From Bifidobacterium mellis (lineage in GTDB: Bacteria; Actinomycetota; Actinomycetes; Actinomycetales; Bifidobacteriaceae): 64,000 nt of DNA. Positions 16,620 through 59,093 of the stretch are shown here, in pieces. Where the stretch lies: NCBI RefSeq assembly GCF_000967265.1, contig NZ_KQ033885.1, positions 657,552 to 721,551 of the forward strand. Reading direction: 5' to 3'. The notes under the pieces are model-generated. The model saw only the letters and a program-made list of their open reading frames with translations. It was not told the DNA's origin and did no database searches. A program made the translations under genes and the position numbers. Within the stretch, counting starts at the first letter, position 1. Every line of letters begins with the position of its first letter.

Positions 16620-17423
16620 TCAGTTGCGGTCGCCGACCAGATTCAGGATGTAGAGGAAGAGGTTGACGAAGTCCAGGTAGAGGTTGAGGGCGCAGAGGAT
16701 GGAGACCCGCTTGATGGCCTCCGGCCCCTGGCTGCGGTAGGTGGCGAAGATGACCCTGGTCTGCTGGGCGTCATACATGGTCAGCCCGGCGAAGAGGATG
16801 ATGCCGATGGCCGAGACCACGCGCAGGGCCGTGTCGGAGGGGGCCAGGAAGAGCATGACCACCTGGACCAGGATCAGCATGAGCAGGCCGGCCATGAAGA
16901 TGGACCCCATGCCCAGCATGTTGCGCCGTGTGGTCAGCCCCAGCATACTGAGGACGAAGAAGAAGCCCGCGCTGATCACCAGTGTCAGCATGATGGAAGG
17001 CAGTGAGTAGGTTATGAAGATGGTGCTCAGGGTGAAGCCCATCAGGGCCGCATAGAGGTAGAACATGACCCGGGCGGTGGAGGTGCGCATGCGCATGACC
17101 CGGACGCTCAGAATCATGGCGAAGGCCACCTGGACCACGGCCATGCCGATCCAGCCCAGGGCGCCCGTGGCCTGCATAAAGGCCAGGAGCAGTCCGGTCC
17201 GGGCGGTCAGGTAGGCCGTCAGGGCGGTGACCAGCAGGCCTACGGCCATCTCCGCATAGGCGCGGGACATGGAGACCCGCTCCGCCTTTTCAAAGCTGTA
17301 TGCTGCGTTGGTGTCGATGGGCGAACCCATGCCGTAGGGCTCACCGCCCTGCATGGTCGGCATCGGCTGCTGCGCATACTGACCGTATGGGGCCTGCGGC
17401 CGCGGATTCCCGTTGAAAGCCAT
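16620..17423 (-). CDS. Bax inhibitor-1/YccA family membrane protein
   Basis: 267 aa with seven predicted membrane segments, starting near AEMAVGLLVTALTAYL and ending near YLDFVNLFLYILNLVGDRN, the characteristic BI-1 C-terminus with LNLYLDFVNLFLYIL. An N-terminal, glutamine/methionine/proline-rich cytoplasmic tail (about residues 1-45) precedes. Family members are implicated in calcium leak and protease control; the bacterial role is unclear. AAGGAGGAG lies just upstream of the ATG at 17423. Converges on acnA across a shared terminator. Confidence 0.92.
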   Translation of the reverse strand: MAFNGNPRPQAPYGQYAQQPMPTMQGGEPYGMGSPIDTNAAYSFEKAERVSMSRAYAEMAVGLLVTALTAYLTARTGLLLAFMQATGALGWIGMAVVQVAFAMILSVRVMRMRTSTARVMFYLYAALMGFTLSTIFITYSLPSIMLTLVISAGFFFVLSMLGLTTRRNMLGMGSIFMAGLLMLILVQVVMLFLAPSDTALRVVSAIGIILFAGLTMYDAQQTRVIFATYRSQGPEAIKRVSILCALNLYLDFVNLFLYILNLVGDRN

Positions 17424-17500: not shown

Positions 17501-17715
17501 GGGTGTTTGCTCTGGCTGGAATCAGGCGGGGGTGGGCCGCCATGGCGGGGTGGTTGCATGCCCACATCCCGCCGTGGCGGTTGCCCCCCCCCCTGATGTG
17601 CCGTCCATCCCTTGGGAGGGTGAGCGGAGTGTGGTGGGGGCGCGGGAGGGAAGTGTCGGCTCTCTTGGGTTTTGAGCCTTGATTGACACGTTCCCTCCCT
17701 GCTCCCCCTATGTAG

Positions 17716-17753: not shown

Positions 17754-20700
17754 TTACTCGTGCGAAGCATGAAGCAGCTGGTGTAGTTCCCTCCGGTGGC
17801 GGCGTGAGGCCAGGACCCCGCCCATGCCGGTCATGCCAGTGGCCAGGGCGAGCAGGATGCCCTCCCCTCCGGCCTTGGGGAGCACGCCTGCAGGCAGGTA
17901 TGTGTATCTGAGGGAGGTGTCGGTCAGGATGCGTCCTGCGCCGCCCATTGCATAGTCGACGCTGACTGTGACCGTACCTGGCTGGTGTGCGGGTGTGAGC
18001 ACGGTCACGCCGTTACCGTTGCTGACAGGAGCCAGGTTCGTGCCTGGGCTGGTGTCGAACCTGGCTGCAGTGATCACCGGCTGCAGGTTGAACAACACCG
18101 ACACAGGAACGTTTGAGTCGTCGGTAGTGCCGTCGCCGAGCTGACCATAGCTGTTTTCTCCCCAGGCGTATGCGTATCCGTTGCTGCCCACGGCCAGCGA
18201 ATGATGGTCTCCGACGCTGAACCGTGTGGCTTGTAGCCCTTTGCTAGCGTCGGCTGGACTGGTGGGGTCGCGTACTGGCACAGGAACACTTGAGTTGCTG
18301 GTAGTGCCGTCGCCGAGCTGGCGATACAGGTTCCATCCCCAGGCGTATGCGTATCCGTTGTTGCCCACAGCTAGTGAGTGCTCGCCTCCAGCGTTGATCG
18401 CTGTGGCTTTGAGCCCTTTGCTCGCGTCCTTGGGGCTGGTGGGGTCGCGTACGCGCACAGGAACTGTCGAATCTACTGTGTTGCTGTTGCCGAGTTGGCC
18501 ATAGTTGTTCAATCCCCAGGCGTAGGTGTATCCGTCGCTGCCCACGGCCAGCGAATGAGAGTATCCGGCGCTGACCTGCACGGCTTTCAGTCCTTTGTTT
18601 GCGTCATTGGGGCTGGCGAAGTCTCGCACGCGCACAGGAAAAGACGAAGAGCTTTTGTTGCTGTTGCCGAGTTGGCCATAGTTGTTTAATCCCCAGGCGT
18701 AGGTGTATCCGTCGCTGCCTACGGCCAGCGAATGGTGCCATCCGGCGCTGACCTGTATGGCTTTGAGCCCTTTGTTCGGGTCAGTGGGGCTGGCGGGGTC
18801 GCGTACGCGCACGGGGAAAGATGAATCTGCTGTGCTGTTGTTGCCGAGTCGGCCATTGTCGTTCCATCCCCAGGCGTAGACGTATCCGTTGCTGTCCAAG
18901 GCCAGTGAATGCTCGTCTCCGGCGCTGACCTGTATGGCTTTGAGTCCTTTGTTCGGGTCATTGGGGCTGGCGGGGTCGCGTACGCGCACAGGAACAGAGG
19001 AATACGTTGTGGTGTTGTTGCCGAGCTGACCATGCTGGTTGCTGCCCCAGGCGTATACGTATCCGTCGCTACCCACGGCCAGCGAATGCCATTTTCCTGC
19101 GCTGACCTGCACATAGGTGAAGTCGGTCGGCACGCCTGCAGGTTTCCTCACTATGTTCGGCGTACTCCGGCTGTTAGTCGTTGCGTCGCCGAGCTGACCA
19201 TAGGTGTTGTCTCCCCATGCGTAGGCTTTCCCGTCGCTGCCCACCGCCAAGGAAAAAACATAGGTATAGTATTTTGCTCCGCCGACCTGGTTGAATCTGA
19301 TGCCGCTGGTGCTGTCTGGCGGGGTGATGGTGGTGGTTTCGTGGCCGAGCTGGCTGCCTGTGTCTGGGCTGATTCTCCAGGAGGTGTTGGGGGTTTTGCT
19401 GGTCCATTTGGCGGTGAGGGTGAGATTCTCGGTGACGGGCTTGCTGAAGTCGTAGGCGACTTCGTTGATGAACCATCCGTCGAACTGGTAGCCGCTGCGG
19501 GTCGGGTCGGGTGAGGGCCGTTGGACTCTCCCGTAGGGATAGGTGACCTGCTGGTCTCCGGGTTTGGGGCTTCCTCCGTCCGTCTTGAAAGTGACCGTGT
19601 AGGTGGAACTCTGTCGGATGTCCTTCAGAAGCGTCTGGTCGACCGTGTAGTTGAGGCTCCGGGTGAAGGGCTGGCCGTCCTGCCTTCCGGCGAGTGTGAT
19701 GGTGACTGGTCCGGGCTGGCTTGCTGGCATTTCCGTCTGCCAGGAGCCGTCGGTCTTGTTAAGTGTCAGCGACTGGCTGTCCAGGCTGGCTGATTCCAGG
19801 GTGGGCGCTGTGGTGGTGTTGACTTTTGCTGGCTTGCCTGGCTGGTTCTGGGTGTTGATGCTCCACTGGTATAGGCTGCCCTGCCTGTCTAGGGCGGTGA
19901 TCCTGCCGCCGATGCGGACTGCTTGCAGGTAGTGCTGGTTCCCGTTGTCCGCGCGCGTGGGTGTCTCGCCTGGCTTCCAGGTCCAGATGTGGCCGTCCGT
20001 GCCGGTGATGACGGCCTGGTTCTTGTTGGCGGTGATCCGGCTGGCTTTCATGTTTTCCGACAGGCCGGTGGTTGCGAGGCTTGTCTTGCCGTCGGCCAGG
20101 TAACAGGCCTGCCCGTTTGCGCCCAGGAGGAGGAACCCCTGGCTGAGGGCTTGGGCTTGGGTGATGCGCATGCCCTGGTCTTGTCTGATGCGTTCGGGCT
20201 TGACGTTGGCGGTCCTGCTTGTGTTCCAGGTCCAGGCTTGCCCGTCCGCGTCCAGGGCGAGGGTCCGGCTGGGGGAGGCGACGGCCAGTGTCGCCTGGGC
20301 CTGCCCGGGCAGAACGGTCGTGGCTTGTTCTGTCAATTTTTCGTTCTGACCGTCGGTTTGGTCGGCTTGGAAGGCGTGGACCTGTCCCTGCCGGTCCACC
20401 GCCAGCAGCAGGTCGTCGTTCATGCTGATGCTGGTGAACCTGGTGTTCTGCTTGGTGTCGAGGATGGTGGGCGTTGTTTGTCCGTTGGGCCAGGTGTAGA
20501 TCTGCTGGTCGGATCCTATTGCGGCCTGCCATTGGCTGCCGGCTGCGGCCTGCAGGTAGCGAAACCCGTCGGCAGCCTGGGTGGGGAGAGGAACCTGCTT
20601 GGGTGTGCCGTCCTGCGCCCAGGTGTAGATGCGGCCGTCGCCGGTCAGGCCGACAAACTGGCTGCCTGCCGTGTGGATGCTCGTGTAATAGGACTCTTGC

Positions 20701-21333
20701 AGGCTGGGTGGGCTGATGGTCAGCTGTGTACCGGAGGTGGGCCCATGGTCCGGGCTCAGTGTCCAGTCCGTGGCTTTGGCCCATTTTGCGGTCAGAGTTG
20801 TGTCCTGGAGGATGGGAACCTGGAAGTCGAAGGGCTGGCCGTCGCGTGTCCACCCGTCGAACCGGTAGCCTTCGCGCACGGGGTTGTTTTCCGGAGGGAA
20901 TGCGAGGGTGCCGGCTTTCACGGTCGCCTGGGTAGGAGTGTTGCCGTCGTCTGGGTCGAAGCGCACCGTGTGCGAAGCTTGACCGTCCGTCTTGCCGGAT
21001 GGCTTGGCTGTAGAAGGACCTGTGCTTTTGGTGGCGTCCTTCGACGTTGACGGGACTGAGCTTGATGTCGTGGCGTTCAGGGGTGATGCGGTTTGCAGCG
21101 GCGAGGGTGAAGGCAGGGGAGTGCTGGTTGCGCTGTTGGGGAGTGTGACGGGGGTTTGCTCAGCTACGCGAGGGGTCTGACGACCCCCCCCCCCCGCTAA
21201 ATACAGGAGTGTCCGCCGGACTGGCGGACACGACATCGTCCGCGTTGGCGGACGCGACACCCAGGCCTGCCAGCAGGCCCAGCAGGACGATCGCCGTCGC
21301 CGATGCGCGACGCAGACGGGTACCCAGATGCAT
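17754..21333 (-). CDS. Putative phase-variable, wall-anchored RCC1-propeller/InlB-B-repeat surface protein (OFF frame here)
   Basis: The signal peptide starts at ATG 21333, after AAGGGG (MHLGTRLRR, then ATAIVLLGLLAGLGVASA and a cleavable ASANAD end). It leads into 12 G residues (minus strand) and, with 12, stops after 57 aa at TGA 21160. The long body lies in another frame; 11 or 14 G would join them into about 1,192 aa. Body order: Ser/Thr/Pro linker; InlB-B/Flg_new repeat (HTVRFDPDDG...LTAKW); a divergent propeller-like region; a second such repeat (YTVTFKTDGG...LTAKW); seven RCC1 repeats (HSLAVGSDGY-YAWG), the number forming one seven-bladed propeller; then LPKAG, a hydrophobic segment and RRHRR, a sortase-type sorting signal. 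Probably an adhesin or host/matrix-binding protein. Alternatives: homopolymer sequencing error, or a decayed gene; the intact 3.5-kb body argues against decay. Confidence 0.8.
18110..19260 (-). repeat. Seven tandem RCC1-type repeats at DNA level
   Basis: Units of about 190-200 bp repeat almost word for word, for example the plus-strand phrase for GSDGY-YAWG (cccaggcgta followed by gtatccg) appears near 18161, 18338, 18516, 18697, 18870 and 19050. High nucleotide identity makes recombination-driven change in repeat number plausible and could confuse short-read assembly. Confidence 0.85.
21184..21195 (-). repeat. C12/G12 homopolymer, candidate phase-variation switch
   Basis: Twelve consecutive C on the plus strand sit 46 codons after the start of the surface-protein gene, between the signal peptide and the mature domain. 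The count decides whether the two frames join (11 or 14 = ON; 12 = OFF as given). Confidence 0.8.
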
Positions 21334-21629
21334 GAAATCAATCCCCTTCACCAATGCCAAGCGGTATCAAGGCCTCCTGCCTATCAGCATTAACGTCTTT
21401 CAAAGTCGATGAACCGTCGCTACTGTGGGCGTTAATGGCCCATAAAGTAGAAGCCAGCTATCTCCCAACATCCCCACTTTTCACTTTACCACCAAGCCAA
21501 CAGAGAACGCACGAAATGCAGAAGCGCGACGGTAGGCCTTAAACAAGAGCTGATCCCATCTTGCCTGGCAGATAGAATGAACACACAACACGTCACGGCC
21601 GCTGATCGGCCGATAAGGAGCATGCCTAT

Positions 21630-57860: not shown

Positions 57861-59093
57861 ATGGAAGGCATGGGTCTGGATACACCTGACATGAAGGAAC
57901 TGCTGGAGCCGAGTCCGCCTATCCGATACGGGGACCGGACGGGGGCCAATTACGTTGGCGGACCCCGGCATCTGTCTGCCGTCCTGCCCGCCCTGAGCGC
58001 CTGCCTGGGAGCGCCCGTGGCCACTGATGTCCACCCGTCCGCCAAAGCCCTCCAGGAGGCCCTGGGACTGCCTGACGCCCGGTCGGTGGTCGTCGTCCTG
58101 GTGGACGGTCTGGGATTCTGGAACCTGGTCAGCCGCCAGGGTCATGTGCCCTACCTGCGCTCGCTGCTGTCCGAACCCATCAACCAGCGTCCCCTCTACA
58201 CCAGCCTGCCTTCGACGACCGTGGCTGCCATGGGGGTCTTCGGCACCGGAACCAGCCCTGGACTGACCGGCATGACCGGTTACACCCAGCTGAATCCGGA
58301 CACCGGCCAGCTGGGCCAGATGATCCAGTTCAGGGGGGCCCAGGACCCCGAGCGCCTGCAGCGCCGCCCCACGGTCTTCGAGACCCTCCAGGCGCAGGGG
58401 GTCCGGGTGACCTCGTCAGGTCTGCCTCGTTTCCGCAACTCCGCCCTGACCCGTGCAGCCCTGCGCGGCGGGGACTACCTGGCCCACAACCACTCCCGTC
58501 AGCGTCTCCTGGCCGCCTGCCAGGCCGCCCGCCAGTCGGGGCTGACCTACCTCTATATCCGCGATGTGGACAAGGTGGGCCACCACAGCGGTTGGGAGGG
58601 CGAGGAGTGGGTGGCCGCCCTCGAAGCGACCGATGCCCAGCTGGCCGAGCTTCATCGCCGCCTGCCCGCCGGGACGCTGACGGTGATCGTAGCCGATCAC
58701 GGCATGGTGGAGGCTGATCCGGACCAGCGCATTGACATAGCCCAGGACCCGGAGCTGAGCCAGGATGTGCGACTGGTGGGCGGCGAGCCCAGGGCGGTCA
58801 TGCTCTACCTGGACCAGGGGGCGGATCCACAGGTCGTTTCTGCACGCTGGCATGATCGTCTGGGGGAGCGGGCCTGGGTGCTGACCCGGGACCAGGCCAT
58901 CCAACAGGGCATCTTCGGCCCTGTGGACCCCCGGATTCGACCCATGATCGGCGACCTCCTGATTCTGGCCGGTGACCGGGTCACCCTGGTGAATTCTGCA
59001 GGTCAGACGGATGCCGCGACCAGACTGCCTGGCGTGCATGGCTCATGGACCCGTCTGGAGACGCAGATTCCCTGCCTGATCGATCTGGTCTGA
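57861..59093 (+). CDS. Alkaline phosphatase/nucleotide pyrophosphatase superfamily protein
   Basis: 410-aa metal-dependent phosphodiesterase/phosphatase fold. Metal site 1 VVVLVDGLGFWNL, nucleophile loop LPSTTVAAMGVFGTG, DVDKVGHHSG and VIVADHGMVE supply the usual Asp/His ligands. No signal peptide, so probably cytoplasmic. Substrate unknown. ATG starts at 57861, 57870 and 57891 are all possible and none has a clear Shine-Dalgarno. Divergent from parC by 105 bp. The gene is commonly found in the sigA–sepH region of actinobacteria. Confidence 0.85.
   Translation: MEGMGLDTPDMKELLEPSPPIRYGDRTGANYVGGPRHLSAVLPALSACLGAPVATDVHPSAKALQEALGLPDARSVVVVLVDGLGFWNLVSRQGHVPYLRSLLSEPINQRPLYTSLPSTTVAAMGVFGTGTSPGLTGMTGYTQLNPDTGQLGQMIQFRGAQDPERLQRRPTVFETLQAQGVRVTSSGLPRFRNSALTRAALRGGDYLAHNHSRQRLLAACQAARQSGLTYLYIRDVDKVGHHSGWEGEEWVAALEATDAQLAELHRRLPAGTLTVIVADHGMVEADPDQRIDIAQDPELSQDVRLVGGEPRAVMLYLDQGADPQVVSARWHDRLGERAWVLTRDQAIQQGIFGPVDPRIRPMIGDLLILAGDRVTLVNSAGQTDAATRLPGVHGSWTRLETQIPCLIDLV

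Follow-up and report, generated by a model that had tools for sequence, protein, structure and literature searches.

A surface-protein gene built around an RCC1 propeller, in a Bifidobacterium of the bee-associated asteroides clade, is probably phase variable. In the 64,000-nucleotide stretch of the Bifidobacterium mellis genome (2.13 Mb) analyzed here, hereafter the window, a run of 12 guanines splits the gene into a short signal-peptide open reading frame (ORF) and a long, otherwise intact body. This reading, already put forward in an earlier note on the same DNA, is supported by comparison with relatives, in which orthologous tracts occur in both in-frame (ON) and out-of-frame (OFF) lengths ahead of a body that is intact and under purifying selection.

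Organization of the locus

The earlier note had described a signal peptide separated from its body by the G12 tract, a body reached in frame with 11 or 14 G and free of any other disruption, and a sortase-like C-terminus, all of which were recovered (Table 1). The signal-peptide ORF passes through the tract and meets a TGA 24 bases past it, and the body is entered from the signal-peptide frame at tract lengths of 2 modulo 3, so that the gene as assembled is OFF. The body is free of internal stops over all of its 1142 codons, matches the Pfam RCC1 repeats (E = 2.5e-89) as well as two Listeria-Bacteroides repeats (E = 9.3e-26), and ends in LPKAG, a hydrophobic stretch and RRHRRE, an arrangement by which it would be anchored to the cell wall through LPKAG. 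The placement of the tract has to be corrected slightly: it had been set exactly at the junction between signal peptide and mature domain, and it is indeed near that junction, but it lies 15 codons past the AxA motif (ANA, followed by DD; assigned by eye rather than with a predictor) and hence just inside the mature part. As in contingency genes, a putatively hypermutable tract sits near the coding start of a gene that is otherwise intact. A near-mode search of plasmid records returned no match, and a plasmid-borne origin of the gene was dropped.

Table 1. Features of the RCC1 surface-protein locus (positions in the window)
Feature	Positions	Strand	Basis and remarks
Likely ribosome-binding site, GAAGGGG	21343..21349	-	By eye; identical across the five-ortholog alignment
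Signal-peptide ORF, 57 aa	21160..21333	-	ATG at 21333; OFF-frame end at TGA 21160-21162
Predicted Sec-type signal peptide, 31 codons to ANA/DD	21241..21333	-	Core and AxA by eye; hydrophobicity scan
G12 tract, proposed switch	21184..21195	-	Counted in the sequence; 14, 13, 13 and 15 G in orthologs
Conserved 24-base segment with one stop per OFF frame	21160..21183	-	TAG 21164-21166, TGA 21160-21162
Body, 1142 codons plus stop	17754..21182	-	No internal stops
Listeria-Bacteroides repeat (Flg_new), better of two	19407..19601	-	Pfam PF09479; body residues 528-592
C-terminal RCC1 propeller, body residues ~630-1030	18093..19295	-	Pfam RCC1 repeats; hypervariable pairs per blade (entropy); UVR8 alignment
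LPKAG, LPxTG-like wall-anchor motif, followed by hydrophobic stretch and RRHRRE	17868..17882	-	LPxAG-type end in relatives

Of 100 dinucleotide-shuffled versions of the window, 8 contained at least one G12 (mean 0.15), and the length of the tract therefore says little by itself. What goes beyond chance is its position together with its recurrence, both in the source genome and in relatives. Seven of the 26 tracts of at least 10 G in the source genome stand at the start of an RCC1-family body, three of them as G11 (ON), three as G12 (OFF) and one as G13; a signal peptide was called in 6 of the 7, the G13 copy falling under the calling threshold. One of the other 19 resembles a real coding tract, and the rest are intergenic or lie in spurious-looking ORFs, as judged by eye. 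Within the window, no base is repeated 7 or more times in a row except in the G12 and in one G10 (17584-17593, minus strand), which lies in the gap separating the RCC1 gene from the following one (16620-17423). The possibility that the G10 acts together with the switch was considered and rejected, the run being intergenic; the corresponding site in the G012 ortholog is GGAGAGGGGG, which points to recent growth or interruption of the run.

Several other G runs stood out in the genomes compared. A 333-aa ORF that by eye resembles a transport permease has an in-frame G12 close to its start (L063, G000:C2:68782-68793) and is possibly another switched gene. A single intergenic stretch contains two tracts, of 13 and 11 G, one on each strand and some 90 bp from each other (L062, G000:C1:57843-57855 and 57944-57954), and locus L179 carries very long runs of 17 and 28 G side by side, which look like an assembly artefact.

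Tract lengths, stop codons and selection in relatives

The closest named relatives of the protein are found in B. choladohabitans, B. asteroides, B. apousia, B. polysaccharolyticum, B. mizhiense and B. xylocopae, together with unnamed strains (13 of 19 loci); these species are bee symbionts. Relatives at E <= 1e-10 were present in 22 of the 27 genomes of the genus, and the RCC1 model matched 32 of 151 Bifidobacteriaceae genomes, 22 of them within this genus. Five orthologs are near-identical over the approximately 420 bp leading up to the tract, with only one further 1-base indel across that stretch, and their tracts measure 12, 14, 13, 13 (plus one G just upstream) and 15, placing two of the genes ON and three OFF. 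The single in-frame length in all relatives that the earlier note had named as evidence against switching is thus not what the relatives carry. Natural in-frame and out-of-frame alleles exist, between species rather than within one strain, the comparison covering one genome per species.

The same pattern extends to the wider family. The loci read contained 117 tracts of at least 8 G, 84 of which precede an ORF of at least 250 codons. Five of these were dropped for want of a called signal peptide (G000:C2:68782, G000:C2:1125707, G001:C1:928051, G004:C9:169617 and G012:C7:153204), leaving 79 copies, 19 ON and 60 OFF. These are a sample from loci picked for RCC1 bodies among the matches listed: two of the 79 have fewer than 2 RCC1 signatures, both cut by the end of the locus, and 12 bodies are shorter than 1000 codons, six of them cut in the same way. 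The tracts comprise one of 10 G, 15 of 11, 50 of 12, 6 of 13, 4 of 14, 2 of 15 and one of 17.

It is very unlikely that these lengths merely reflect assembly or sequencing error, with a true tract of 11 (or 14) G everywhere and the gene always ON. Errors are common in long G runs, a study on B. breve cautions that database entries may give other tract lengths than those its authors measured (PMC9187656, in the parts available to us), and the single-contig assemblies scatter more than the others, so that some of the lengths may indeed be sequencing errors. However, five ortholog assemblies show five differing allele states, 60 of the 79 family copies are out of frame, and error alone leaves unexplained the conserved stops that close both OFF frames.

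These stops form a compact element directly downstream of the tract. TC follows the tract in 81 of 84 copies, mostly as TCGTCAGACCCCTCGCGTAGCTRA or a diverged version of it, and the OFF frames usually stop 5 and 7 codons past the tract. In 76 of 79 copies, defined here by a tract followed by TC and an ORF of at least 500 codons (77 are shared with the signal-peptide set of 79), the stops of both OFF frames lie within 8 codons of the tract, compared with 1501 of 69028 control positions in these genes (2.2%) and with 4.1% when the same peptides were re-encoded by the codon usage of the family. As the copies are related, alignment columns were compared as well. The valine of the cassette that creates the TAG is encoded by GTA in 70 of 71 valine rows (78 aligned), whereas GTA nowhere predominates in 13 other conserved valine columns (15 of 60 rows at the most). 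Furthermore, the peptide groups RQTPRVAE, RYTAQVDN and RPTARVDK retain both stops via different codons. Three orthologous copies (L057-L059) have a short, interrupted run, are in frame and lack the TAG while keeping the TGA; in L039 the tract is absent, the gene is in frame and the stop pair is retained. With no working tract and with signal peptide and body in frame, these four loci (L057, L058, L059 and L039) are natural locked-ON copies.

A programmed slippage of transcription (or of the ribosome) offers another account, in which the DNA is fixed at an OFF length, RNA polymerase slips and every cell makes a little of the protein. Twelve identical bases in a row could cause slippage during transcription as well, the stop pair would fit such slippage equally well, and near-uniform lengths point the same way, G12 accounting for 50 of the 79 copies, for 15 of 16 tracts in genome G020 and for all 5 in G022. 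We nevertheless consider this account unlikely: in-frame alleles of 11, 14 and 17 G exist (19 of 79), the orthologs vary in length, L057-L059, which lack a real tract, and L039, which has lost it, are all in frame, and in the same genus the DNA tract itself has been found to vary within one culture of B. breve (PMC9187656, in the parts available). Transcriptional and replication slippage are compatible and not mutually exclusive. ON copies make up 10 of 19 in the two single-contig genomes and 9 of 60 in the multi-contig genomes, and free slippage would predict more spread in length than is seen in G020, G022 and the G002/G021 pair described below; the preponderance of OFF copies in the assemblies also weighs against a replication-slippage switch. 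Four causes could each account in part for the uniform lengths and for the difference between assembly types, namely counter-selection of expression in culture, gene conversion, transcriptional slippage and effects of sequencing. The uniform lengths and the difference between assembly types are the main reason why we hold the replication-slippage switch to be probable and go no further.

The body is under purifying selection. Ten pairwise comparisons among five ortholog bodies, one of them partial, gave dN/dS values of 0.27-0.41, and 0.10-0.27 for the C-terminal propeller, as expected of a contingency gene kept by selection although often OFF. That a frameshift has killed the gene and left the body to decay is therefore highly improbable: the gene is frameshifted as assembled, and a minority of family matches do contain internal stops (for example G007:C1:618411 and G007:C1:380105), but the accumulation of stops in the body that the earlier note had named as a sign of decay is not seen in the window copy, the dN/dS values speak against decay, and two of the five orthologs are in frame.

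A second lineage places the tract differently. The more distant genomes G002 and G021 (32 stretches chosen in G002 for tracts preceded by T, and 8 stretches in G021; only a few loci were read in G026) yielded 60 tracts of at least 9 G in the 40 stretches read, 46 of them in genes with a signal peptide, of which 32 showed at least 2 RCC1 signatures in the part read. Here the tract lies inside the signal peptide, between the hydrophobic core and the AxA site. Lengths are 10 (15 copies) and 11 (31 copies), 14 of the 46 genes are ON, and in 40 of 46 a stop closes each OFF frame within 20 codons. Loci L160 and L168 of G001, both RCC1-like, have the same appearance. In both lineages the commonest tract length is the usual in-frame length plus one base. 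The two lineages follow the same logic with a different placement.

Mismatch repair, replication orientation and the proposed mechanism

A search for the MutS domain was negative in all 27 genomes of the genus and positive in 11 of 14 control genomes, and NucS was found in 27 of 27. In Mycobacterium smegmatis, NucS leaves indels of 1-2 bases unrepaired, which the authors tie to mycobacterial phase variation (PMC11551767, in the parts available); by analogy, NucS may leave such indels unrepaired in bifidobacteria also. Tracts of at least 10 G number 6-10 in the five genomes without RCC1 matches (G005, G016, G017, G023 and G024) and 12-98 in 20 of the 22 genomes with such matches; the exceptions, G006 (9 tracts) and G009 (none), have one match each among the matches listed.

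The tract genes are uniform in orientation. Because GC skew did not clearly resolve the strand within the window, orientation was judged from the positions of dnaA, with the terminus set half-way. On this basis, all 66 tract genes face the replication fork (7 of 7 in G007, 12 of 12 in G019, 39 of 39 in G002, counting tracts before an ORF of at least 200 codons, one of them without a signal peptide, and 8 of 8 in G021), with the qualification that copies arrayed in tandem cannot count as independent. For ABC-transporter domains the figure is 49 of 150 listed matches (150 of the 210 matches in G002, G007 and G019). Tracts without a long ORF are also fork-facing in 10 of 13 cases, as are, by eye, all 86 Flg_new matches of G007 and G019, and the orientation is therefore more likely a trait of the whole family than of the switch. 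That it causally raises slippage is a speculation.

Under the mechanism that we propose, replication slippage would add or remove one or a few bases of the G tract. Where the length is 2 modulo 3 (11, 14 or 17), translation would run from the signal peptide into the body, and the body would be exported and attached to the wall via LPKAG (ON); with any other length, the stop pair would end translation within 5-7 codons and only a short peptide would be made (OFF). With MutS missing, slipped bases would probably go unrepaired, and with the same switch on many paralogs, a population should show differing combinations of propellers. We infer that slippage occurs within a clone and that the protein is lost when the tract is OFF.

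Known switches, the RCC1 family and a putative variable face

Contingency loci with poly-G or other repeats, as in Neisseria and Campylobacter, turn surface genes ON and OFF by a change of frame near their start. Those loci belong to other phyla and encode other proteins, whereas the bacterium here is a Gram-positive insect symbiont. Closer at hand is B. breve UCC2003, in which a G tract acts as an ON/OFF switch of two sortase-dependent pilus clusters (Penno et al. 2022, PMC9187656). Productive slippage there is mainly the loss of one base, the ON length is enriched in mice, tracts are listed for other bifidobacterial pilus clusters, and other relevant B. breve tracts are mentioned; G-tract switching has since been extended to the pili of B. 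bifidum (PMC10757668). The accessible parts of the B. breve study describe, in the same genus, a G tract of about 10-11 that separates a signal-peptide ORF from an LPxTG body; the two parts are out of frame as sequenced and brought into frame by the loss of one base, and the body has no translation start of its own. The present locus likewise consists of two ORFs with a G tract between them, its anchor being LPxAG rather than LPxTG. In contrast, the switched pilus gene is the first of an operon with its own sortase, and most tabulated strains have one or two such clusters per genome, whereas the RCC1-propeller genes occur in many copies with no adjoining sortase. The two sortase matches in the source genome (C1:87105 and C2:307420) both lie outside the window, and a pilus operon, with a pilin and a dedicated sortase, was rejected. 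The conserved stop pair of the RCC1 genes was not seen described for the B. breve pili in those parts of PMC9187656.

The protein family itself has been reported from bee bifidobacteria. B. asteroides PRL2011, from the honey bee, has 19 RCC1-family copies (Bottacini 2012, PMC3447821), and "Bifido" genomes carry 7-24 copies each, with Flg_new repeats and LPxTG, in tandem clusters (Ellegaard 2015, PMC4449606). The present proteins belong to this family by their RCC1 repeats, the Flg_new repeats upstream of them and the LPxTG-like anchor; among 73 complete family bodies, 67 have an LPxAG end and 3 an LPxTG end. The words homopolymer and frameshift are absent from both texts, and the parts available to us mention no G tract. 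A search of the open-licence literature found no description of tract-switched RCC1 proteins. Mechanism and protein family are thus each already known, and their combination was not found described in the literature searched; the same holds for the stop pair, the scale of the family, the second placement of the tract and the orientation bias.

Whether the family as a whole amounts to a repertoire resembling those of antigenic variation, with many RCC1-propeller paralogs per genome, each switched by a G tract whose commonest length is one base off frame, a stop pair for a clean OFF state, hypervariable pairs on a UVR8-type binding face and a head-on orientation that may raise slippage, seems to us about evenly balanced. 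If so, a harmless insect symbiont would be using a form of surface diversification best known from pathogens, towards hosts, phages or competing strains, and RCC1 surface proteins, a family without known function, would become a testable combinatorial display system in a gut bacterium with a tractable host. The combination of a G tract with downstream stops in the two other frames would also provide a sequence signature for translational phase variation in assemblies, and would explain why such genes appear broken in annotation.

The putative binding face emerges from the alignment of 52 bodies, in which the residue pair of SAG-xx-HS has an entropy of 2.4-3.5 bits at the seven places examined and adjacent residues are mostly below 1 bit; AWG-x-N-x displays a similar pattern. 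These positions suggest a variable binding face on a fixed scaffold. The best match by sequence among solved structures is UVR8 (E = 5.9e-85), which shares the RCC1-fold propeller and in whose GWRHT motif the residues W-R align with the hypervariable pair; this motif carries interface tryptophans of the UVR8 dimer surface (PMC9546227, in the parts available). UVR8 is a plant photoreceptor in which this pair is fixed, whereas the present proteins are predicted to be secreted and wall-anchored, and the pair differs among paralogs.
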